This document shows, one piece after another, positions 1-10,105 of a stretch of 64,000 nucleotides of DNA; positions within the stretch are counted from its first letter, which is position 1; each line of letters starts with the position of its first letter. Origin of the DNA: Streptomyces sp. HPF1205. Its GTDB lineage: Bacteria; Actinomycetota; Actinomycetes; Streptomycetales; Streptomycetaceae. Location: NCBI RefSeq assembly GCF_020400825.1, contig NZ_JAINVH010000001.1, positions 248,001 to 312,000 of the forward strand, written 5' to 3'. Both the position numbers and the translations under genes were made by a program. Under the pieces are notes generated by a model that had not been told where the DNA came from, did not search any database, and worked only from the letters and a program-made list of their open reading frames with translations.

Positions 1-1962
1 CTTCCACCACGTCGCCGACTCGATCAGCGAGAAGTCCCGCACCACCAGCCAGTCGAGCTTCGCCATGCCGAGCCGCTGCATCCTGGTGTTGGCCGAGCCG
101 ACCGCCGGGTTCTCGCCCATCAGGAAGTAGCCCTTGCAGACCCCGTCGAGCTGCGCGAGCACCGTCTCGTACGTGCTGTGCGAGCCGGTCAGCAGCGGCA
201 GGTGGGAGAAGCAGAAGTCGTTGCCCGGCGTGGCCGCGTCGCCGTAGTACGCCTTGAGCAGGCTGACGAAGTACGCGCGCGCGTCCCCCCAGAAGCCCTT
301 GTCGGTCCGGATGGCCTCGACGAAGCCGTCGAGGTTCTCGTCACGGTGGGCGTGCGGCACCGGCAGGTAGCCCGGCAGCAGGTTGAAGAGGGTCGGGATG
401 TCGCTGGAGCCCTGGATGCTGGCATGGCCGCGCAGCGCCTGGATGCCGCCGCCGGGACGGCCGATGTTGCCCAGCAGCAGTTGGAGGATCGAGGCGGTGC
501 GGATGTACTGCGCGCCCACCGTGTGCTGCGTCCAGCCGACCGCGTAGCAGAAGGCGCTGGTGCGGTCCGCGCCGCTGTTGCGCGTCAGCGCGTCGCAGAC
601 CTGGCGGAACAGGTCCGGCGGGACCCCGCACGTCCGCTCGACCACCTCCGGGGTGTACCGGGCGAAGTGCCGCTTGAGGATCTGGTACACGCAGCGCGGG
701 TGCTGGAGGGTCTCGTCCCGCGGCGGGCTCGGGTGCGCCGCGGCGCCGCCCGAGCCGTGCGACTCCGAGCCGCCCGCGTCCGAGATGGCGGACTCGCGCT
801 TCCTGCGGGCCGAACGGTCGCTCTCGCTCTCGCGGTTCTCGCCGCTCTCGGGGCTCTCGCCGCTCGCCCCGACCTGCCCGTTGTCCTTCGGTGTCTCTTC
901 CGGCGTGCGCCCGGTCTCCTCGCGCTCACCGGCCGCCGCGTTGACCTCCCCGCCCTCGTAGGCCCAGCTCGACGGGTCGTAGTGGCGCCCCTGCGCGTCG
1001 AGCCCGGAGAACACCCCGTCCAGGTCCTCGGTGTCCTCGAAGTCCTCGTCCACCAGGAAGGAAGCGTTGGTGTACCGCAGCACATACTCCCTGAAGTCCT
1101 TGCCTTCCGTCAGTACGTGATTGACGATCGCGCCCAGGAAGGCGATGTCGCTGCCGGCCCGGATCGGCACGTGGAGGTCCGCGAGCGCGCTGGTGCGGGT
1201 GAAGCGGGGATCGACGTGGATGACCGTGGCGCCCCGCGCCTTGGCCTCCATCACCCACTGGAAGCCGACCGGGTGCGCCTCGGCGTAATTGGAGCCCTGG
1301 ATGACGATGCAGTCCGAGTTCTGCAGGTCCTGCATGAACGTGGTGGCGCCGCCCCGGCCGAACGAGGTGCCCAGACCCGCCACCGTCGCGCTGTGGCACA
1401 CCCGCGCCTGGTTCTCCACCTGGATGACGCCCAGCCCGGTGAACAGCTTCTTGATGAGGTAGTTCTCCTCGTTGTCCAGCGTCGCCCCGCCCAGGCTCGC
1501 GATCCCGAGGGTGCGGTTGACGCGGACCCCGTCCACTTGGTCCTGCCAGGTGTTCCGGCGGGTGGCGACCACCCGATCGGCGATCATGTCCATCGCCGTC
1601 TCCAGGTCCAGCGGCTCCCAGTCCTGCGCGTACGGCCTGCGGTAGAGCACCTTCTTGCGCCTGGCGTCCCCGGTGGTGAGCTGCAGGGTCGCCGACCCCT
1701 TCGGGCACAGCCGGCCCCGGCTGATGGGCGAGTCAGGGTCGCCCTCGATCTGCACCACCCGCTCGTCCTTGACGTACACCTGCTGCCCGCAGCCGACCGC
1801 GCAGTACGGACAGACGGACTTCACCACCCGGTCGGCGGTCGCCGTGCGCGGCGTGAGCTCCCGGGTCCGCCGCGACATCGCCGCCGCGCCCCTGCCGAGG
1901 CGGTCACGCCCGGTGAGCTGGCGGAGAACGGGCCATCCTCGGATCGGTTCGGGCAGGTCCAT
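1..1962 (-). CDS. Formate dehydrogenase alpha subunit (molybdopterin oxidoreductase), C-terminus beyond window edge
   Basis: Only the first 654 codons are present. The protein belongs to the FdnG/FdoG-like molybdopterin family that oxidises formate to CO2 through a bis-MGD cofactor and a [4Fe-4S] cluster. Cluster cysteines are visible at about C51, C54, C58 and C86 (CPYCAVGC and RLCPKG). At the position that is selenocysteine in E. coli FdnG the motif reads ENQARVCHSAT, so Cys189 is the Mo ligand and no Sec decoding is needed. Around residues 325-415 there is a long Ser/Arg/Glu-rich disordered insert, encoded by short GCTCTCG-like repeats. No twin-arginine signal is seen at the N-terminus, suggesting a cytoplasmic enzyme. 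The start ATG is preceded by a GAGG-containing stretch; M29 is an alternative. Beta and gamma subunits are not in view. Confidence 0.9.
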   Translation of the reverse strand, partial: MDLPEPIRGWPVLRQLTGRDRLGRGAAAMSRRTRELTPRTATADRVVKSVCPYCAVGCGQQVYVKDERVVQIEGDPDSPISRGRLCPKGSATLQLTTGDARRKKVLYRRPYAQDWEPLDLETAMDMIADRVVATRRNTWQDQVDGVRVNRTLGIASLGGATLDNEENYLIKKLFTGLGVIQVENQARVCHSATVAGLGTSFGRGGATTFMQDLQNSDCIVIQGSNYAEAHPVGFQWVMEAKARGATVIHVDPRFTRTSALADLHVPIRAGSDIAFLGAIVNHVLTEGKDFREYVLRYTNASFLVDEDFEDTEDLDGVFSGLDAQGRHYDPSSWAYEGGEVNAAAGEREETGRTPEETPKDNGQVGASGESPESGENRESESDRSARRKRESAISDAGGSESHGSGGAAAHPSPPRDETLQHPRCVYQILKRHFARYTPEVVERTCGVPPDLFRQVCDALTRNSGADRTSAFCYAVGWTQHTVGAQYIRTASILQLLLGNIGRPGGGIQALRGHASIQGSSDIPTLFNLLPGYLPVPHAHRDENLDGFVEAIRTDKGFWGDARAYFVSLLKAYYGDAATPGNDFCFSHLPLLTGSHSTYETVLAQLDGVCKGYFLMGENPAVGSANTRMQRLGMAKLDWLVVRDFSLIESATWWK

Positions 1963-2391
1963 CTCTCGGTCCTCGTCTCGTCCGGCTGCCGCGCGGCATC
2001 GTCACAGCCCCGACGGCGAAGGTCGGCTGCCCCGGCTCGGCGCGGGAAAACCCGGGACCCGCGCCCCGCCGTCCCGTACGCGCGGACGGGACCCGCCACG
2101 GTCCGGCGTCCACCGTATGCGTACTGTTACGGAGGCGCCCGCCGGCAAGGGCCGGATGGGTGCGGTCCGGCGGGAGCGGGGGCGGGGGTGGCGGCTGCGT
2201 ACGTCGCGGCGGGGGTGCGGGTCCGCGGGGGCGGATGGCCGGGTGCGGGTGTGTCCCGGCGTGGGTGAGGTGCGGGTCCGCGGGGGCGGCAGGTGCGGGT
2301 GGGGCCGGTGTGAACACGGGCGGCGGGGTAGGCGGGGGATGGGAAGCCGGGCCGTGCGTGGTTCCGGCGCAGACGTTCCCAGGAGGACCCC
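1963..2391. other. Gene-free divergent interval with G-rich repeats
   Basis: About 430 bases between the divergently read formate dehydrogenase and short-chain dehydrogenase genes. No convincing coding region is seen. The right half is extremely G-rich on the + strand, with many runs of 3-5 G, and could form G-quadruplex structures. It carries a 21-base perfect direct repeat listed separately. The promoters of both flanking genes must lie here but no clear -10/-35 pair can be assigned. Confidence 0.5.
2214..2289. repeat. 21-bp perfect direct repeat, two copies
   Basis: The same 21 bases, beginning GGTGCGGGTCC, occur at 2214-2234 and 2269-2289, offset 55 bases, inside the G-rich interval upstream of the short-chain dehydrogenase. 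Origin and role are unknown; replication slippage in G-rich DNA or a paired regulator site are both possible. Confidence 0.6.
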
Positions 2392-3420
2392 ATGGCAGCG
2401 CTTCAGCTCCACCCCGAATCCCTGAGCGGTCTGTCCGCGGTGGTCACCGGCGGTTCCCGCGGACTCGGGCTGCTGATCGCCGAGCAGCTCACCCGGCGGG
2501 GCTGCGCGGTCACCATCGCCGCCCGCGACGCCGAGGAATTGTCCGCGGCGGAGGACTTCCTGAAGCTGCGCCCCGGCGCCCGGGTCCGCGCCGCCGTGTG
2601 CGACGTGACCGACCAGGACGCGGTACGCGACCTCTTCCGTACCGCCGACGAGGAGTGGGGCGGCGTCGACGTGGTGGTCGCCAACGCCGGGGTCATCCAG
2701 GTGGCGCCGCTGGACTCGGTCGGGGTCGCGGAGTTCCGTGACGCGATGGAGACCATCTTCATGGGCACCCTGAACACCTCGCTGGAGGCCATGCCCTACC
2801 TGCGGCGCAGCCGGGCCGGCGGTCGGCTCGCGCTGATCGGGTCCCTCGGCGGGCTGGTCGCGGTGCCGCACTTGCTGCCGTACTCCTGCGCGAAGTCCGC
2901 GGTGGGCACCCTCGCCGAGGGGCTGCACGCGGAGGCGGGCCCGCACGGGGTGAGCGTCACGGCCGTGCATCCGGGGCTGATGCGCACCGGCTCGCACGTG
3001 GCCGCGGAGATCGGCGGCGAGCAGGCGGAGGAGTTCGCCTGGTTCTCCGGGCTGGCCGGCACTCCCCTGGTGTCGATGGACGCCCGGCGCGCAGCCGACC
3101 GCATCGTCACCGCGCTGCAGCGGCGCAGGACCCGGGTGGTGCTCACGCCGGCCGCCAAGGCGGCCGACATCAGCCACGGGGTGGCGCCCGCGACGACCAC
3201 CAAGCTCACCGCGATGGCGGGTCGGGCGTTGCCCGCCGCGCCCGAGGGACACGAGACCCCGCACACCGACGAGGGCGGCGAGTCCGCCGAACTGCGCAAG
3301 GGAGGCGAGGTGGAGCCCCCCGCCCGCGTCGTGGTCCGCAAACTCCGTGACTGGGGCAGCACCCTCAACGATCGCGCGGCCCAGGCGTACAACCAGCTCA
3401 GCCACCGCCGCTCGGCCTGA
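2392..3420 (+). CDS. SDR-family NAD(P)-dependent oxidoreductase
   Basis: A 342-residue classical short-chain dehydrogenase. The Rossmann glycine motif TGGSRGLG is at residues 19-26, NAG at 98-100, the catalytic Ser at about 151 and the YSCAK motif with Tyr164 and Lys168. The last ~90 residues extend beyond the usual ~250-residue SDR core and are charged and probably flexible, as in several actinobacterial SDRs of unknown substrate. The start is well fixed by AGGAGGA a few bases upstream of ATG. The substrate cannot be told from sequence. It is a single-gene unit pointing away from formate dehydrogenase. Confidence 0.88.
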   Translation: MAALQLHPESLSGLSAVVTGGSRGLGLLIAEQLTRRGCAVTIAARDAEELSAAEDFLKLRPGARVRAAVCDVTDQDAVRDLFRTADEEWGGVDVVVANAGVIQVAPLDSVGVAEFRDAMETIFMGTLNTSLEAMPYLRRSRAGGRLALIGSLGGLVAVPHLLPYSCAKSAVGTLAEGLHAEAGPHGVSVTAVHPGLMRTGSHVAAEIGGEQAEEFAWFSGLAGTPLVSMDARRAADRIVTALQRRRTRVVLTPAAKAADISHGVAPATTTKLTAMAGRALPAAPEGHETPHTDEGGESAELRKGGEVEPPARVVVRKLRDWGSTLNDRAAQAYNQLSHRRSA

Positions 3421-3624
3421 CGGGGTGCACGGCGTGCGGACCGACATGCACGCGATGCACGCGAGGGCGGAAGCCGGCCGGCGGGCCGGGCGGTACGCCG
3501 AGGCCTACGCGGTGGCGGAGACGTACGCGGTGGCCTGGCGGCTCTCGGGAGCGTGGGCGCGTGCACGGGCACGGGCGCTGGCGCGTGCGCGGTCCGGGGC
3601 GCGGGTGGCGGCGGAGGCGCGGAC

Positions 3625-4326
3625 ATGAGCGGGGGCGCGGACGTGAGCGGCGGCGCGCGGCGAGACGGCGAACGGCCGCCCGGCTCGGGGTACGACGCCA
3701 CGCCGTACCTCCCGGAGCACGGCGGGCTGGCCGCCTACCGCGAGGCCGCCGCCGACTGCCGGGGATGCCCTCTGTTCGAACCGGCCACGCAGACGGTCTT
3801 CGGTGAAGGCCGCGACGACGCCCGCATCGCCCTGGTCGGCGAGGAACCGGGGGACCAGGAGGACCGGCGCGGCGAGCCCTTCGTCGGCCCGGCCGGCCGG
3901 ATGCTGCGCAAGGCCATCGAGGACGCCGGACTCGGCGACGAGCCCGCCTACATCACGAACGCGGTCAAGCACTTCAAGTTCGAGCCCGCCGAGCGGGGCA
4001 AGCGGCGCATCCACAAGTCGCCCTCCCTGCGCGAGGTGTCCGCCTGCCGGCCCTGGCTCGACGCCGAACTGCGCCTCCTCTCGCCGGAGTTGGTCGTCGC
4101 CCTCGGGGCCACCGCCGCCAGGGCGCTGCTCGGCTCGTCCTTCCGGGTCACCAAGGAGCGCGGCACCCCGCTGCCGCTCGCACTGCCTCCGGACGGTGAG
4201 CGGCAGGCCACGGTCGTGGCGACCCTCCACCCCTCCGCGATCCTGCGCTCCGACGACCGAGAGCGCGCGTACGAGGGGCTCGTCGCCGATCTGCGGGCCG
4301 CCGCCCGGGCGCTGGCGGGCGGCTGA
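3625..4326 (+). CDS. udgX: UdgX-type uracil-DNA glycosylase/cross-linking protein
   Basis: A 233-residue uracil-DNA glycosylase superfamily protein. The GEEPGDQED motif (residues 73-80 region) and the loop KRRIH (126-130) are the hallmarks of UdgX, whose loop histidine forms a covalent bond with the sugar after uracil excision, so the protein becomes stuck to uracil-containing DNA (established for Mycobacterium smegmatis UdgX). His130 is the candidate nucleophile. Cys45, Cys48 and Cys141 are likely iron-sulfur ligands, and TLHPS (200-204) is the second active-site motif. The ATG at 3625 is chosen because GGAGG lies just upstream; an earlier in-frame ATG at 3553 would add a Gly/Ala-rich tail without family support. 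The neighbours are unrelated. Confidence 0.88.
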   Translation: MSGGADVSGGARRDGERPPGSGYDATPYLPEHGGLAAYREAAADCRGCPLFEPATQTVFGEGRDDARIALVGEEPGDQEDRRGEPFVGPAGRMLRKAIEDAGLGDEPAYITNAVKHFKFEPAERGKRRIHKSPSLREVSACRPWLDAELRLLSPELVVALGATAARALLGSSFRVTKERGTPLPLALPPDGERQATVVATLHPSAILRSDDRERAYEGLVADLRAAARALAGG

Positions 4327-4453: not shown

Positions 4454-4493
4454 TTGACATCTCTTTACAACCCGGTCCAGGGCCGGGTCGTCT
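4454..4493 (+). promoter_or_regulatory. Candidate promoter (ECF-type) upstream of the DUF4232/sortase cluster
   Basis: An AACC element at 4469-4472 and CGTCT at 4489-4493 are separated by 16 bases, resembling the AAC...CGTC layout of promoters read by ECF sigma factors, and an ECF sigma gene is encoded 1.8 kb downstream in the same cluster. A TTGACA hexamer at 4454-4459 also lies here but has no good -10 partner at 17-18 bases. The spacer contains the inverted repeat CCCGG/CCGGG. Assignment to that sigma factor is inference. Confidence 0.35.
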
Positions 4494-4570
4494 CTCCCCG
4501 CGATTCCCGGAACGGCCCCGCCGGCTTCCTGCCGAGCGCCGAGGCCGCTGGGGGGAAAGAGGGACTGGAC

Positions 4571-5365
4571 ATGCTCAAGCGCTCACTGACCAAGCGCTCA
4601 CTCGCCGTCGGCACCGCCGCCTCGGCGGCGGCGTTCGCCGTCGCCGCACTGGGAGCCGTACCCGCCATGGCGGCTCCTGGCGCGGCCCCGGCCCGCGCCA
4701 CGACCCCGATGTGCCTGACCTCGCAGCTCTCCGCCCGTCTCGGCGGCGGCGACGCGGGGGCGGGCAACCTGTACCGCTACCTCGTGATCACCAACCACAG
4801 CCGCACCACCTGCCATGTCACCGGGTACCCCGGGCTGTCGCTGCTCGACGCGCACGGCAAGCAGATAGGCGCCCCCGCCGACCGCGACCCGAGGTCGTAC
4901 GCGCCGGTCGTACTGCGCCCCCGCGCTTCCGCCAGCGACACCATCCACACCGCGAACCAGATGGGCACCTGCCTGCCCGCCTCGACCTCGCTGCGGATCT
5001 ACCCGCCCGGCAACCGCTCCTCGCTGGTCTTCCCCGGCAAGGTGACCAACTGCGACCGGGTGTTCACCGTCACCCCGTTCACGGCGGGCACGGAGGGCAA
5101 CCCGTCGAACGCCCGTTCCGGCAGTGTCCCCACCCCCGAACCGACCCGCTCCGCGGCCTCGACCGCCAGGCCGGCGCCCGCACCCGGCCGGCAGGTCACC
5201 GCGGTGCCGTCCGGCGCGCCCGACACCGGCGTGGCGCCGGTCGCGTCCTCCGGATCGCACGGCACCGAGGTCGTGGGGGCCGCGGCCGCCGGCGGCGCGC
5301 TGGTCCTGGGCGGCCTGGGCCTCGCCGCCCGCCGGCGGGCCACCCGTGGCCAGGCCCGGGGCTGA
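4571..5365 (+). CDS. Secreted DUF4232 protein with sortase-like C-terminal anchor
   Basis: A 264-residue protein. Residues 1-34 are a Sec signal peptide (basic start, hydrophobic core, AMA cleavage region). A DUF4232 domain spans about 45-180, with cysteines at 48, 81, 134 and 161 that could form two disulfides. A Pro/Ala/Thr-rich wall-spanning linker follows, then APDTG (216-220), a hydrophobic segment at about 233-253 and the basic tail RRR, the order of a sortase sorting signal, although the first Leu of LPXTG is Ala here. The next gene is a sortase, which supports wall anchoring. The domain is a paralogue of the one at 6828-8108. Function of DUF4232 is unknown. The ATG is preceded by GGAAAGAGGGA. 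Confidence 0.82.
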   Translation: MLKRSLTKRSLAVGTAASAAAFAVAALGAVPAMAAPGAAPARATTPMCLTSQLSARLGGGDAGAGNLYRYLVITNHSRTTCHVTGYPGLSLLDAHGKQIGAPADRDPRSYAPVVLRPRASASDTIHTANQMGTCLPASTSLRIYPPGNRSSLVFPGKVTNCDRVFTVTPFTAGTEGNPSNARSGSVPTPEPTRSAASTARPAPAPGRQVTAVPSGAPDTGVAPVASSGSHGTEVVGAAAAGGALVLGGLGLAARRRATRGQARG

Positions 5366-5584
5366 GCGTTGGCTCGCTTGTCCTCAGCCCTGCCTTCCCG
5401 TCGCCGCGTGCTCGACCCCGCGGCGGCGGGTGGCGGCGCGTACGCCACCGCGCCCGGCACGGCCGCCGTCCCCGCCGGAACCGGCGGCCCCGAAGCGGGC
5501 CTTCCTCGGACCGGCCGTCTGCGGACCGGCCGTCTGCGGACCGTCCGCTCCGGGGCCGTCCGCGCCGCTGACGGGAGCGTCCGG

Positions 5585-6247
5585 GTGAGGCGTACCGGAA
5601 GCCGCCGTTTCCGTTACGCCCTGTGGCCGGCCCTCCTCGCGCTCGCCGTGCTCGTCGGCCTCACCGGCTGCGGGACGGGCAAGGCGGCCCGCACGCCGTC
5701 CGACCCGGGGCCGGGCACCGGCCGGAACACGACCGCGCCCGTCTCCTCACCCGTGAGCGGCCGTAGTTCCGACGCGGCGCCGCCCGCGCAACTCGCCCGC
5801 TCCGAGCCCGTACGGCTGCGCATCCCGGCGATCGGGGTCGACACCAGCGTGATGCGGCTCGGCCTGGCCGCGGACCACACGGTGGAGGTGCCGCCGATCG
5901 CCGCGCACTCCCCGGCCGGCTGGTACGAGGGCTCGCCCACCCCAGGCCGCACCGGGCCGGCGGTGATCCTCGGACATGTCACCGTCGGCCAGTACGGTGA
6001 CGGCGTCTTCCGCCACCTGTCCGCCATGCGGGCGGGCGACCGCATCCTGGTCGGGCTGCGGGACGGCGTCACCGCCTCCTTCACCGTCGACTCCGTGCAG
6101 ACCGTCGCCAAGTCCCGCTTCCCGACCGACGAGGTGTACGGGAACGTCGACCGGCCCGAGTTGCGTCTCATCACATGCGGCGGTCCCCGCGACGGCGGGA
6201 GCGGCTACCCGGACAACGTGATCGTCTACGCCTCGCTGGTCCGGTGA
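5585..6247 (+). CDS. Class F-like sortase with N-terminal lipobox
   Basis: About 220 residues. The C-terminal domain (about 80-220) has the sortase motifs ILGHVT (catalytic His) and LITCGG (catalytic Cys). The catalytic Arg expected near the last strand is not obvious: the sequence there reads YPDNVIVYA. With GTG at 5585 as start, the N-terminus is RRTGSRRF, a hydrophobic stretch and LTGC at 26-29, a good lipobox, so the enzyme may be a membrane-anchored lipoprotein rather than a signal-anchor protein. A GGGAG lies about 7 bases upstream of this GTG. The frame is open back to a TTG at 5369, but that adds a low-complexity tail. It sits between a putative sortase substrate and an ECF sigma factor. 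Confidence 0.8.
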   Translation: MRRTGSRRFRYALWPALLALAVLVGLTGCGTGKAARTPSDPGPGTGRNTTAPVSSPVSGRSSDAAPPAQLARSEPVRLRIPAIGVDTSVMRLGLAADHTVEVPPIAAHSPAGWYEGSPTPGRTGPAVILGHVTVGQYGDGVFRHLSAMRAGDRILVGLRDGVTASFTVDSVQTVAKSRFPTDEVYGNVDRPELRLITCGGPRDGGSGYPDNVIVYASLVR

Positions 6248-6259
6248 GGGAGCGCGCCG

Positions 6260-6844
6260 ATGAAGGAACCGCCGGGGTTCCCTCACCCGGGACACGCGGT
6301 CGCGACGATCACCCGGGCCGGCCCGGCGCCACGACGACGAGTGAGGAGCGCGGTCATCCGGTCTCAAGAGGCGGCGGCTTCCGAATTGTTCGCGGCCCTG
6401 TATCCACGGCTGGCGGGCTGGTGCCGCCGACTGGTGGACGACGACGGGACCGCGCACGAGATCGCCTCGGAGGCCTTCACCCGGCTGTGGGCGCGCTGGA
6501 CGAAGGTCGACGAGCCCCAGGGGTTCCTCTATGTGACCGCGGCCAACCTGGTCCGCGACCACTGGCGCAAACTGGAGCGCGAACGGCGGGCCCTGCGCCG
6601 CGTGACCACGGAGGAAGTCGTGAAGCAGCAGCCGGAGACGGCCGACCCGTCCGTCCGCATGCTCGTCCAGTCGCTGCCCGAACGCCTCCGCAACCCCGCG
6701 CTCCTCTACTACTACGCCGACCTGCCGGTGCGTGAGGTCGCCGCACTGCTGGGCCGCAACGAGGGAACCGTCAAGGCCGATCTGCACGCCGCTCGCGAAC
6801 TGCTCCGCGCGAAACTCGGGGGACACCATGACCGGATTGCCTGA
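6260..6844 (+). CDS. ECF-subfamily RNA polymerase sigma factor
   Basis: A 194-residue sigma factor with a region 2 (about 42-105, including LFAALYPRLAGWCRRL and FLYVTAANLVRDHW) and a region 4 helix-turn-helix (about 135-190, LPVREVAALLGRNEGTVKADLHAARELL). No region 3 and no extra C-terminal domain, so it is a minimal ECF factor. It starts 13 bases after the sortase, with GAGGGAG well placed before the ATG; a GTG at 6341 is a possible shorter start. It overlaps the next gene by 17 bases, implying coupled translation with the membrane DUF4232 protein, which is the best candidate for a partner or anti-sigma factor. Its target promoters are unknown. Confidence 0.88.
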   Translation: MKEPPGFPHPGHAVATITRAGPAPRRRVRSAVIRSQEAAASELFAALYPRLAGWCRRLVDDDGTAHEIASEAFTRLWARWTKVDEPQGFLYVTAANLVRDHWRKLERERRALRRVTTEEVVKQQPETADPSVRMLVQSLPERLRNPALLYYYADLPVREVAALLGRNEGTVKADLHAARELLRAKLGGHHDRIA

Positions 6845-8108
6845 CGACCCCCGGGACGACGCCCGCCCCCCGGGCGCGACGGGCGATTCCTCCGCGGGCG
6901 GTTCCTCCGTGGGCCGTTCGCCGGAGGGCGGTTCCGCGAGCGGTCCGTCGGCGGGCGGCCCTGCGAAGGGTTCGGCGCAGGGCGATGGCCGGGCACGCGG
7001 AGCCGGTCCGGAGTTCGGCGGGGACACCGGCTGGGGCTCCGGCGGGGACATCGGCCGGGGCTCCGGCGGGGAGACCGGCCGGGGTACGGGCGGGGACATC
7101 GGCCGGGGTACCGGCGGGCACTTCGGCCGGGGCACCGGCAGGGACGTCGGCGTGGATGTCGCGGGGGGTTCGGGTGGGGCTGTCGACCGTGCTCCGGGCC
7201 GCGCCTTCGGCCCCGACGCCGCCCGCGCCGCCACCCGCGGCCATGGTGGTGACCTCAGCCGGGACTTCGACGCCGGCGGTCCGGACGGCGACGAGCCGGA
7301 CCCGCTGGAGTGGCTGCTGCGGCCGCCCGGCGACTACCTTTCCCCGCCGCCCGGGTCCTTCGAGCGGATCCGCCGCAAGGCCGCGCGCCGCCGCCGCAAC
7401 CGCGCGGCCGCGGGCGGTGTGGTCGTGGCTGCCATGATCACGGGCTCCGTCTACCTGGCCGGCGCCCTGTCCCCGCACGACTCGGGTGACGTGGTCGGCC
7501 CCCCCGCCACCAGCTCCCAGGTCACCCACGTGCCGACCCCGCCGGAACCGACCGGCCGCGCCCCGCGGCCCAGTACGAGTCCGCCACCCACCACCCGCGA
7601 CGGCAGGCCGAGGCCGGTCACCTCCGCCACCACCCCCACCGCTCTGCCCAGCGGCACCTCCGGCGGCCGGGTGGTACCGCCGACCCCCACCGCCGCCACC
7701 CGGATGTGCACAACCGCCCAGCTCTCAGCGGAACTCGGCGGCGGTAACGCGGGCGCCGGCAACCTCTACCGCTACCTCGTGCTCACCAACCGCAGCGCCA
7801 CCAGCTGCCACATCGCCGGCTACCCGGGCCTGTCCCTGCTCGACGCCGACGGCAACGAGATCGGCGCGCCCGCCACCCGCGACCGGCGCCCGTACCAGCC
7901 GGTGATCCTCGCGCCCGGCGATTCCGCGAGCGACACGATCCACACCGCCGACCAGCAGGGGACCTGCCTGCCCACCTCCGTCTCGCTGCGGATCTATCCG
8001 CCCGGCAACCGCGCCTCCCTGGTCATCGCGGGCCGCGTCACCGACTGCGACAACCTCCTGACCGTCACGCCGTTCACCGCCGGCCGCACCGGCAACCCCG
8101 CCAACTGA
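6828..8108 (+). CDS. Single-pass membrane DUF4232 protein, candidate sigma-factor partner
   Basis: A 426-residue protein with three parts. Residues 1-155 are Gly/Ser/Asp-rich, with tandem GGDIGRGSG-like nonapeptide repeats at about 64-105. A short conserved-looking segment follows (DEPDPLEWLLRPPGDY and SFERIRRKAARRRRNR, 155-192), then one membrane helix (about 194-214), a Pro/Thr linker and a C-terminal DUF4232 domain (290-426) with Cys294, 327, 380 and 407. Topology predicts a cytoplasmic N-terminus and an external sensor-like domain, the layout of transmembrane anti-sigma factors, although no known anti-sigma fold is recognised. The ATG has GGGGGA upstream and overlaps the sigma gene. The external domain closely resembles that of the secreted protein at 4571-5365. 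Confidence 0.82.
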   Translation: MTGLPDDPRDDARPPGATGDSSAGGSSVGRSPEGGSASGPSAGGPAKGSAQGDGRARGAGPEFGGDTGWGSGGDIGRGSGGETGRGTGGDIGRGTGGHFGRGTGRDVGVDVAGGSGGAVDRAPGRAFGPDAARAATRGHGGDLSRDFDAGGPDGDEPDPLEWLLRPPGDYLSPPPGSFERIRRKAARRRRNRAAAGGVVVAAMITGSVYLAGALSPHDSGDVVGPPATSSQVTHVPTPPEPTGRAPRPSTSPPPTTRDGRPRPVTSATTPTALPSGTSGGRVVPPTPTAATRMCTTAQLSAELGGGNAGAGNLYRYLVLTNRSATSCHIAGYPGLSLLDADGNEIGAPATRDRRPYQPVILAPGDSASDTIHTADQQGTCLPTSVSLRIYPPGNRASLVIAGRVTDCDNLLTVTPFTAGRTGNPAN

Positions 8109-8344: not shown

Positions 8345-10105
8345 ATGCCCTCGCTGCTCTCGGTGAATGTCGGGATGCCGAAAGAGGTGTCCTGGCAGGA
8401 CAGGACCGTGTGGACCGGGGTGTGGAAGCACCCGGTGCGCGGCCCGGTGATGGTCAGGCGCCTGAACATCGACGGTGACGGGCAGGGGGACACCGCCGGC
8501 CACGGCGGCGAGCAGCGCGCCGTGCTGGTCTACCAGATCCAGTCCTACCGGCACTGGGAGCGGCATTTCGGACGCGACGACTTCGAATACGGTCAGTTCG
8601 GCGAGAACCTCACCGTCGACGGCCTGCCCGACGACGAGGTCTGCATCGGCGACCGGTACCGCATCGGCGAGGCCGAGTTCGAGGTCACCCAGCCGCGGGT
8701 CACCTGCTACCGCGTCGGCCTGCGCCTCGGCGAACCCCAACTTCCCGCCCTGCTGGTCGCCCACCACCGTCCCGGCTTCTACATGCGGGTGCTGCGCGAG
8801 GGGCACGTCCAGGCCGGTGACCCGATCGTCCGGACCCGGACCGGACCGGGCGCGCTGAGCGTCGCCGACACCGACGCGCTGCTCTACCTTCCCGGCCGCG
8901 ACCCCGCCAAGCTGCGTCTGGCGCTGGACATCCCCGCCTTGAGCCCCGGCTGGCAGGGATCGTTCCGCGAACTGCTCGCCGCTGCCGGCGGTGGTCCGGG
9001 CTCCACCGCGGATACGGGTGCCGGGGCCGCTCCCGTGGACACGCGCCCGGCCTGGCAGGGTTTCCGGGAGTTGCGGGTGGCCGAGGTGGTGCCCGAGACG
9101 ACGACGGTCGCCTCGATCCGCCTCACCAGCCCCGACGGGACACCGCTCCCGGCCGCCCGCGCCGGCCAGTACCTGACGCTGCGGGTCCCCGGCCTGGGCC
9201 GCCCGGCCCCCGTACGCAGCTATTCGCTGTCCTCGGCGCCGGACGCCGGCGGCTACCGGATCAGCGTCAAGCGCGAGCCGCACGGCGTCGCGAGCGGCTA
9301 CCTGACCACGAAGCTGCGGCCGGGAGCGGTCCTGGAGGTGGCCGCTCCCCGGGGCGACTTCGTCCTCGCCGACGGCCCCGGCCCGGTGCTCCTGATCTCC
9401 GCCGGCATCGGCCTCACACCGGTGCTGTCGATGCTGCACGAGCTCGCCGCCCGCGGCAGCGACCGCGAGGTCTGGTGGATCCACGGGGCACGCGGGCCGC
9501 GGGAGCACCCGTTCGCCGCCGAGGCGCACGCCTTGCTGGCGGCGCTGCCGCGCGGCCGGGAACACGTCTTCTACAGCGCGGCCACCGCCGAGGAGCGGAG
9601 CCGTGCCCACGCCGTCGCCGGGCGCCTGACCGCTGAGGGACTGGCCGCGCTGTCCCTCCCGGCCGGGGCGACCGCCTACGTGTGCGGACCGGCCTCCTTC
9701 ATGGACGACATGCGCGCGGCACTCGCCGCGGCCGGTGTCGACCCGGCCCGCATACACGCCGAACTCTTCGCCGCCCTGCCGTCGAGAACCCCGGGTCTCA
9801 CCGCCCGGGCGGCCCGCCCGCCGCACCAGCCCCCTGGCCCGCCCGGAACCGGCCCGCTGGTGACCTTCGCCCGCAGCGGCATCTCCGTGCCGTTTCCCGA
9901 GGGCAAGAGCAGCGTCCTGGAGCTCGCCGACGCCTGCGACGTTCCCACGCGCTGGAGCTGCCGTACCGGCGTGTGCCACACCTGCGCCACCCGCCTGCTG
10001 TCCGGTGACGTCACCTACTCGCCCGAGCCGCTGGAACCTCCGTCCGACGGCGAGGTCCTCATCTGCTGCTCACGGCCCGGCACCGACCTCGTCCTCGACA
10101 TGTGA
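8345..10105 (+). CDS. MOSC domain - ferredoxin reductase - [2Fe-2S] ferredoxin fusion
   Basis: A 586-residue three-domain protein. Residues 1-210 are a YiiM-like MOSC domain (GENLTVDGL, CIGDRYRIG, VTQPRVTCYRVG). Residues about 235-490 form an FAD/NAD(P)H oxidoreductase of the flavohemoglobin/phthalate dioxygenase reductase type, with RSYSLSSAP for FAD, GIGLTPVLSML for NAD(P) and YVCGPASFMDD near the end. Residues about 505-586 are a plant-type [2Fe-2S] ferredoxin with SCRTGVCHTCATRL and LICCSRP supplying four cysteines. MOSC proteins act on N-hydroxylated or molybdenum-cofactor-linked substrates; the fused chain suggests a self-contained NAD(P)H-driven N-hydroxy reductase, but the substrate is inferred only. 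The ATG follows GGGAAGGAA. Confidence 0.85.
   Translation: MPSLLSVNVGMPKEVSWQDRTVWTGVWKHPVRGPVMVRRLNIDGDGQGDTAGHGGEQRAVLVYQIQSYRHWERHFGRDDFEYGQFGENLTVDGLPDDEVCIGDRYRIGEAEFEVTQPRVTCYRVGLRLGEPQLPALLVAHHRPGFYMRVLREGHVQAGDPIVRTRTGPGALSVADTDALLYLPGRDPAKLRLALDIPALSPGWQGSFRELLAAAGGGPGSTADTGAGAAPVDTRPAWQGFRELRVAEVVPETTTVASIRLTSPDGTPLPAARAGQYLTLRVPGLGRPAPVRSYSLSSAPDAGGYRISVKREPHGVASGYLTTKLRPGAVLEVAAPRGDFVLADGPGPVLLISAGIGLTPVLSMLHELAARGSDREVWWIHGARGPREHPFAAEAHALLAALPRGREHVFYSAATAEERSRAHAVAGRLTAEGLAALSLPAGATAYVCGPASFMDDMRAALAAAGVDPARIHAELFAALPSRTPGLTARAARPPHQPPGPPGTGPLVTFARSGISVPFPEGKSSVLELADACDVPTRWSCRTGVCHTCATRLLSGDVTYSPEPLEPPSDGEVLICCSRPGTDLVLDM

Follow-up and report, generated by a model that had tools for sequence, protein, structure and literature searches.

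A conserved four-gene sortase unit in Streptomyces and Actinacidiphila, probably an autoregulated ECF sigma factor loop for a single sorted protein

Results and discussion

Near the start of a 64,000-nucleotide stretch of the Streptomyces sp. HPF1205 genome (hereafter, the window), four genes that are all on the + strand encode, in this order, a secreted protein with a DUF4232 domain, a class F sortase, an extracytoplasmic function (ECF) sigma factor and a membrane protein with a second DUF4232 domain, with a single ECF-type promoter ahead of the block (4464-8108 of the window; 252,464-256,108 on contig C1 of the 8.4 Mb genome). We consider it likely that these genes form one operon and a closed sigma/anti-sigma loop, the main output of which is one anchored surface protein. 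Comparison of genomes demonstrates the conserved gene order and gene overlap, the promoter, the matching of sigma factor and promoter, the single strong promoter site and the joint evolution of the DUF4232 domains. Taken as a whole, the unit is a conserved and self-contained sigma/anti-sigma loop, probably autocatalytic, dedicated to one sorted protein. Its parts are as follows.

4464-4495, + strand: ECF-type promoter, TTTACAACC-N16-CGTCTCT, with the -35 triplet AAC at 4469-4471 and the -10 element CGTC at 4489-4492; conserved upstream of the first gene
4571-5365, + strand: secreted protein, presumed sortase substrate, with a signal peptide, DUF4232, a Pro/Ser/Thr stalk and a sorting tail
4709-5110, + strand: DUF4232 domain of the sorted protein (PF14016 match)
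5216-5230, + strand: sorting motif APDTG in the context VPSGAPDTG, read from the sequence
5585-6247, + strand: class F sortase with a lipobox-like N-terminus (LTGC); PF04203, NF033748
6341-6844, + strand: ECF sigma factor (alternative start ATG at 6260); Sigma70_r2 and r4_2 above cut-off
6828-8108, + strand: putative anti-sigma factor, consisting of a cytoplasmic part, one transmembrane helix, a Pro-rich stalk and DUF4232
7299-7403, + strand: conserved cytoplasmic segment of the fourth protein, residues 158-192, DPLEWLLRPP..PPPGSFERIRRKAARRRRNR, presumed to bind the sigma factor (consensus of relatives)
7410-7469, + strand: predicted transmembrane helix, about residues 195-214 (hydropathy)
7704-8105, + strand: DUF4232 domain of the fourth protein, predicted beta-sandwich (PF14016, 99 bits, cut-off 27)

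The gene content given in the original prediction for this DNA (two DUF4232 proteins, a sortase and an ECF sigma factor) is borne out by profile scores: PF14016 matches the sorted protein at 96 bits (cut-off 27), and the sortase scores 87.7 bits with PF04203 (cut-off 26.6) and 191.3 bits with the NCBIfam class F model NF033748 (cut-off 166). The sigma factor consists of regions 2 and 4 alone, as is typical of the ECF type (PF04542, 41.3 bits, and PF08281, 40.7 bits, both above cut-off; TIGR02937, 60.8 bits, cut-off 42.9), and falls short of membership in SigE-fam_strep (TIGR02983, 82 bits, cut-off 141.55).

Conservation of the gene order

The comparison covered 99 loci picked by similarity of the sigma factor, namely the best 80 from named genomes, 18 stretches from relatives and the window itself; counts over this set include near-duplicates (the same species occurs twice in the pairs L050/L059 and L052/L063) and loci cut by contig ends, among them 13 truncated membrane genes, and are not independent. 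Among the best 80, the nearest loci in named records come from Actinacidiphila and Streptomyces. A sortase is present in 96 of the 99 loci, a protein with a sorting signal in 94 and the membrane gene in 97; the three loci without a sortase (L041-L043) have sigma factors with 57-60% identity. The 17-base overlap of the sigma and membrane genes, predicted originally and exact in the window (6828-6844), recurs in 95 of the 99 loci, where the first base of the membrane gene lies 16 bases ahead of the last base of the sigma stop codon, and in all 78 complete loci, that is, those with all parts present (21 loci were dropped as incomplete, N-containing or sortase-less). By this comparison, the four-gene order, on the conservation of which the original prediction depended, is conserved in relatives, and chance as the source of the arrangement is excluded because order, overlap and promoter are all conserved.

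A promoter private to the sigma factor

Ahead of the first gene, the pattern CAAC-N17-CGTC occurs in 85 of the 91 loci with a called start, at a distance of 65-127 bp (247 bp in one locus), against a background, over 966 kb, of 40 other + strand matches and 36 - strand matches; the six loci missing the pattern carry a variant. The commonest gapped word pairs are found in 15/15 upstream regions of DUF4232-type loci and in 63/66 of those of Streptomyces-type loci, compared with maxima of 4-7 and 9-15, respectively, in three shuffled sets each. An element before the first gene had been described as AAC-N16-CGTC; the element itself stands, with the spacing corrected to AAC-N17-CGTC, a spacer of 16 being valid for the form AACC-N16-CGTC alone.

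The window promoter is the sole exact site in the genome, with one other site at two mismatches. At up to one mismatch, the extended form TTTRCAACC-N16-CGTCTCT was detected in 29 of 41 relatives at 30 sites (G008, with two copies, accounts for two of them), and in 28 of these 29 genomes every site lies about 2 kb or less upstream of a sigma factor match (in G018, the site is on another contig). Broken down by the presence of a sigma gene with at least 74% identity, the site occurs in 29 of the 30 genomes that have the gene and in 0 of the 11 others, with 0/41 for the reversed control; the one exception, G010, probably has one extra spacing base (L125). Of 121 Streptomyces genomes drawn, the 35 with the sigma gene (identity at least 75%) each contain the exact form TTTRCAAC-N17-CGTCTCT once, including G395, where site and gene are on separate contigs; the 86 without the gene contain no exact site. 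By these presence patterns, the strong promoter site is private to the sigma factor of the unit.

The residue that follows GT[VI] in the -35 recognition helix of the sigma factor matches the promoter triplet throughout: K goes with AAC (85/85), M with AAT (6/6) and R with AGC (5/5), in a count in which near-duplicates are included, one locus (L067) could not be parsed and the A at the first triplet position was preset by the search pattern. Each of the 11 M and R copies shares its genome with a K/AAC copy, which is the distribution expected of second copies that are insulated. This K/M/R - AAC/AAT/AGC series represents a natural experiment on the insulation of paralogous ECF sigma factors and could be useful for promoter engineering. 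Given the conserved promoter, the genome-wide presence pattern and the matching of residue and triplet, the operon is very probably under the control of the sigma factor that it encodes, in line with the earlier suggestion that it controls its anchored partner. Of 17 distant loci, 13 also have the motif AACC-N16-CGTC no more than 400 bp ahead of the sigma gene, against a single match in the remaining 50 kb of the + strand and three in the 57 kb of the - strand; autoregulation thus seems to predate the sortase link.

The fourth protein as a putative anti-sigma factor

In line with the earlier proposal, comparison supports a role of the fourth protein as a transmembrane anti-sigma factor: the cytoplasmic segment and the overlap or near-overlap with the sigma gene are kept, and the outer domain varies between families. 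The Arg-rich stretch ahead of the predicted helix implies an N-in topology. Most of the cytoplasmic part is Gly-rich and of low complexity; the portion conserved in relatives spans about residues 158-192 and has the consensus dpl..llrp..dyLgpPpG.fe.iRRrAaRRRllR, obtained from the 87 relatives, out of 94, in which an IRR-like match served as anchor. The HxxxCxxC zinc motif of class I anti-sigma factors occurs in none of the 97 fourth proteins (first 200 residues, contig-cut pieces included), and neither the fourth protein nor the scanned relatives reach the cut-off of any Pfam or NCBIfam anti-sigma model; the predicted anatomy fits that of class II (CnrY-like) anti-sigma factors.

A class-wide search yielded more distant sigma factor loci (L152-L168), mostly from other families, with L153 coming from the genus group of Streptomyces. 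Apart from L154, which is cut off ahead of the membrane gene, each of these related ECF sigma genes (L152, L153 and L155-L168) is followed by a one-pass protein, the ectodomain of which varies, in most cases with a similar segment ahead of the helix, and no sortase was seen in the 1.5 kb upstream flank of L152-L168. Ectodomain matches over the cut-off are to DUF4232 (L153, and also L042) and BNR (L152 and L168), with weak BNR-like matches in L156 and L157; four further scanned ectodomains have no domain over the cut-off. These proteins (L152, L153, L155-L168) appear to make up a wider sensor family, and the swapping of ectodomains on a common inner part is as expected of an anti-sigma factor with exchangeable sensors.

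The fourth protein of the window is 426 aa long, compared with 284-403 aa in 16 other complete DUF4232-type loci. Gly-rich near-repeats (GGDIGRGSGG-like) are found in its cytoplasmic part (window 7020-7140).

The sorted protein and its sortase

The tail of the first gene product runs from PSGAPDTG through a hydrophobic stretch to RRRATRGQARG, and the substrates of the unit display the motif, hydrophobic stretch and basic tail of a cell-wall sorting signal. Among 88 substrates, which were preselected with a loose version of the sorting-tail pattern, the motif is APDTG in 75, APNTG in 10 and another in 3. The GVDTG model (NF058571) has matches below the cut-off in 9 of 10 scanned substrates and no match to that of the window, and the cut-off of the LPXTG model (TIGR01167) is reached by one substrate (L044). 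No second protein with such a tail was detected in the window's genome (next match at E-value 0.04). In loci without DUF4232, the first gene encodes a signal peptide, a Pro/Ser/Thr/Ala-rich stalk, ..VPSGAPDTG.., a hydrophobic helix and, usually, RRR or RRRR. Such stalk-type proteins (n=72; median 130 residues, range 105-158) are carried by most Streptomyces loci, and none of the nine scanned has a Pfam domain above cut-off.

The catalytic-type residues of the sortase are conserved in the 93 sequences left after removal of three duplicates: His in 93/93, Cys in 93/93, Arg four residues before the Cys in 93/93 and Arg four residues after it in 84/93 (either Arg could be the catalytic one). A lipobox was matched by a loose regular expression in 86 of 96 sortases, some of these matches being clearly spurious (L065), and SRR plus lipobox in 57/93. 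Many Streptomyces-type sortases (e.g., L110, L119) start with a sequence like SRRAF..LLVSC or LLVGC, resembling a twin-arginine lipoprotein signal. The sortase is probably lipid-anchored, which would be unusual. Elsewhere in the genome, two sortase genes, possibly a class E pair, lie in tandem (G000:C100:238513-239751).

DUF4232 as an accessory of one clade

The original prediction included two DUF4232 proteins in the unit; we reject DUF4232 as its core: in the 78 complete loci, the domain is found in both outer proteins of 17, in neither protein of 61 and never in one alone. In all 99 loci, the corresponding numbers are 17 with both, 78 with neither, three with DUF4232 on the membrane protein alone (L041 and L042, which have no sortase, and the contig-cut L058) and one on the sorted protein alone (L065, where the membrane gene is cut). 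In the sigma factor tree, the sampled sortase loci with both domains form one clade and the sortase-less L041, L042 and L153 fall outside it; by this distribution, DUF4232 is an accessory of one clade, here called Actinacidiphila-type.

The two domains of a locus are more alike than domains of different loci. For 17 loci with both domains intact (a set from which repeat species and truncated domains were excluded, and which differs from the 17 complete both-domain loci), identity is 69.7% within a locus and 64.5% between loci, a value as high as the former appearing in 0 of 100,000 shuffles. The own partner is the single best match for 6/17 sorted domains and 10/17 membrane domains. The number of rare residues shared, 28, did not differ significantly from that in shuffled sets (mean 19.8, maximum 33). 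The candidate history of two ancient, separate DUF4232 lineages was rejected, the domain tree mixing the two kinds with 7 label changes and 0% of the bootstrap trees having one; this tree is poorly resolved, with 20 of 42 inner branches open, 9 starred and the bootstrap unsettled, and the starred branches alone are compatible with one origin.

Across 20 aligned DUF4232 domains of both kinds, 33 positions are invariant, including four cysteines, which fits an extracellular disulfide-bonded domain. The predicted structure is a confident beta-sandwich (pLDDT 89), for which the best solved match is the proteinase inhibitor 3isy (Foldseek E-value 9.6e-4, TM 0.49; with VIA, Z 6.5 and root-mean-square deviation 4.0 over 102 residues), a similarity too weak to assign a function. 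A sequence search of solved structures produced chance-level matches alone.

Proposed mechanism

In the mechanism that we propose, the fourth protein would be a one-pass anti-sigma factor that holds the sigma factor through the short Arg-rich cytoplasmic segment. A signal at its outer part, either the stalk or DUF4232, would lead to the release of the sigma factor, probably by regulated proteolysis, and the freed sigma factor would read the 4464-4495 promoter, no second strong site of this type being present in the genome. Firing of this promoter would produce, presumably from a single transcript, more sorted protein, sortase, sigma factor and its own inhibitor, and the class F sortase, probably anchored to the membrane by a lipid, would fix the small secreted protein to the wall. 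Because both outer proteins of the Actinacidiphila-type clade carry DUF4232, sensor and anchored protein in this clade probably encounter a common ligand, in the envelope or outside the cell, or one another. The unit would tie a class F sortase and DUF4232 to a switch whose promoter can be recognised and for which a dedicated substrate and an inhibitor are probable, so that each is open to direct testing.

Alternative readings

Several observations weigh against this interpretation. A second copy of the unit (L174, positions 1747-3679, in G005, which also carries a K/AAC copy elsewhere) has kept the promoter, sorted protein, sigma gene and membrane gene and lost the sortase. The M and R types of the sigma factor form one clade each in the sigma tree, so that the switch of sigma factor and promoter amounts to two events. 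Likewise, since the both-domain loci form one clade, the matching of DUF4232 on the outer proteins is, by the tree, a matter of few evolutionary events. Further, four-fold degenerate third codon positions of the paired domains are 68.5% identical within loci and 62.0% between loci (0/20,000 shuffles), and gene conversion alone could make the domains alike because these positions, too, are more alike within loci. By both measures of identity, the paired DUF4232 domains undergo concerted evolution, for which gene conversion is at least partly responsible; the pair in the window shows no recent conversion, its longest exact match being 15 bases. Such concerted evolution is compatible with a common ligand and can also arise by neutral gene conversion.

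A rather less likely alternative is a plain positive loop for a structural wall protein, in which the anti-sigma factor senses something unrelated and the matched domains result from neutral duplication and gene conversion. The homogenised synonymous sites, the limitation of the pair to one clade and the related pairs of sigma factor and membrane protein, with other ectodomains and no sortase seen in their flanks, all agree with it, whereas the invariant positions and cysteines shared by the 20 domains suggest selection on both kinds.

A sorting checkpoint appears rather unlikely to us: here, the sorted protein, as long as its C-terminal helix keeps it in the membrane, would touch the anti-sigma factor, and cleavage by the sortase and attachment to the wall would remove the signal, such that the loop would report whether sorting, and the lipid II used by the sortase, keeps pace. 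The sorted protein of most loci, comprising signal peptide, stalk and tail alone, has an unexpected make-up for a functional surface protein; one promoter region serves substrate, sortase and sensor, with the substrate kept in the sortase-less L174; and the outer proteins match in DUF4232, domains that co-evolve. A domainless, perhaps glycosylated, stalk could, however, be structural, and co-regulation is equally predicted by the loop that we prefer. Also rather unlikely is an extended version, in which a private, one-promoter sigma factor monitors sorting: the waiting stalk would be the signal to the anti-sigma factor, cleared by a dedicated, lipid-anchored sortase, and the loop would sense sortase flux and lipid II supply; matched, gene-converting DUF4232 domains would strengthen the contact in one clade, and coexisting copies would be insulated by paired changes of the sigma factor residue and the -35 triplet.

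It is also rather improbable, in our estimate, that the sigma factor commands a broad regulon with weaker promoters, of which the operon promoter is merely the strongest. The short core CAACC-N16-CGTCT, which was rejected as a regulon definition because it is too common, has 17-49 sites per genome in 25 relatives (752 in total, against 420 in the reversed control); its excess is somewhat larger in the 20 genomes with a close sigma gene (630 vs 339) than in the five without one (122 vs 81), in most of which the control is exceeded as well. This excess may reflect weaker targets or other sigma factors with like promoters. However, the extended consensus occurs once per sigma-bearing Streptomyces genome and in none of the 86 others, with a similar pattern in the relatives, and the number of one-mismatch sites in the 121 Streptomyces genomes, 17 spread over both kinds of genome, is close to that of the reversed control (11).

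Finally, a role of the fourth protein as a co-transcribed surface or scaffold component, and not as an anti-sigma factor, is very improbable: the missing zinc motif and family match would agree with this, but the overlap or near-overlap with the sigma gene, the predicted N-in topology and a cytoplasmic segment kept across families despite changes of the outer domain argue against it.

Relation to known systems

A published description of the four-gene unit was not found in the accessible parts of the open-licence literature, and the available text of PMC3123327, PMC3896431, PMC4255298, PMC7406223, PMC10924467 and PMC11256431 does not describe it; the earlier statement that no system joining DUF4232, sortase and sigma factor had been described agrees with this literature, most subscription journals lying outside it. 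Nor was a paper on DUF4232 (domain of unknown function) found in the open-licence literature. The physiological roles of class F sortases are stated to be unknown in the accessible sections of PMC13251363, according to which the deletion of all four class F sortases of Actinoplanes missouriensis, SrtF1-4, gave no phenotype; these enzymes belong to the same class as the sortase of the unit, but no adjacent sigma factor is mentioned in those sections.

By analogy, the closest working counterpart is the SigI/RsgI system of Clostridium thermocellum, which, in the portion of PMC12203970 available, shares with the unit a one-pass anti-sigma factor with a common inner part and divergent outer sensors, and a sigma factor that controls extracellular parts suited to the ligand of the sensor. 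By contrast, SigI is not of the ECF type, the periplasmic domain of RsgI cleaves itself and the genes controlled are cellulosome genes located elsewhere; no sortase is mentioned in the same portion (PMC12203970). Compared with the RsgI family, the fourth protein has the varied outer sensors on a common inner part, and its partner is of the ECF and not of the SigI type.

CnrY is part of a nickel/cobalt system and is not known to have a sortase partner. In Streptomyces, RsbN is the partner of BldN, and the chaplins are encoded elsewhere, with a class E sortase that is general, unlike that of the unit. In anatomy, CnrH/CnrY, with a class II anti-sigma factor, resembles the unit in the short, non-zinc, presumed anti-sigma segment on the cytoplasmic side, as far as described in the available text of PMC7406223. 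In the case of BldN and the chaplins, the likeness consists in an ECF sigma factor that controls surface proteins, some of them sortase substrates (PMC4255298, accessible part). In Porphyromonas, PorA and PorXY-SigP provide a further example of a secreted surface protein that acts on ECF sigma signalling, although this involves Gram-negative type IX secretion and a two-component system (PMC7712824).

Neighbouring genes

Upstream of the unit, positions 3553-4326 of the window encode a UdgX-family uracil-DNA binding protein (TIGR03914, 246 bits, cut-off 190). Downstream, at 8345-10105, a single protein combines MOSC, YiiM 3-alpha, FAD/NAD reductase and 2Fe-2S ferredoxin domains.

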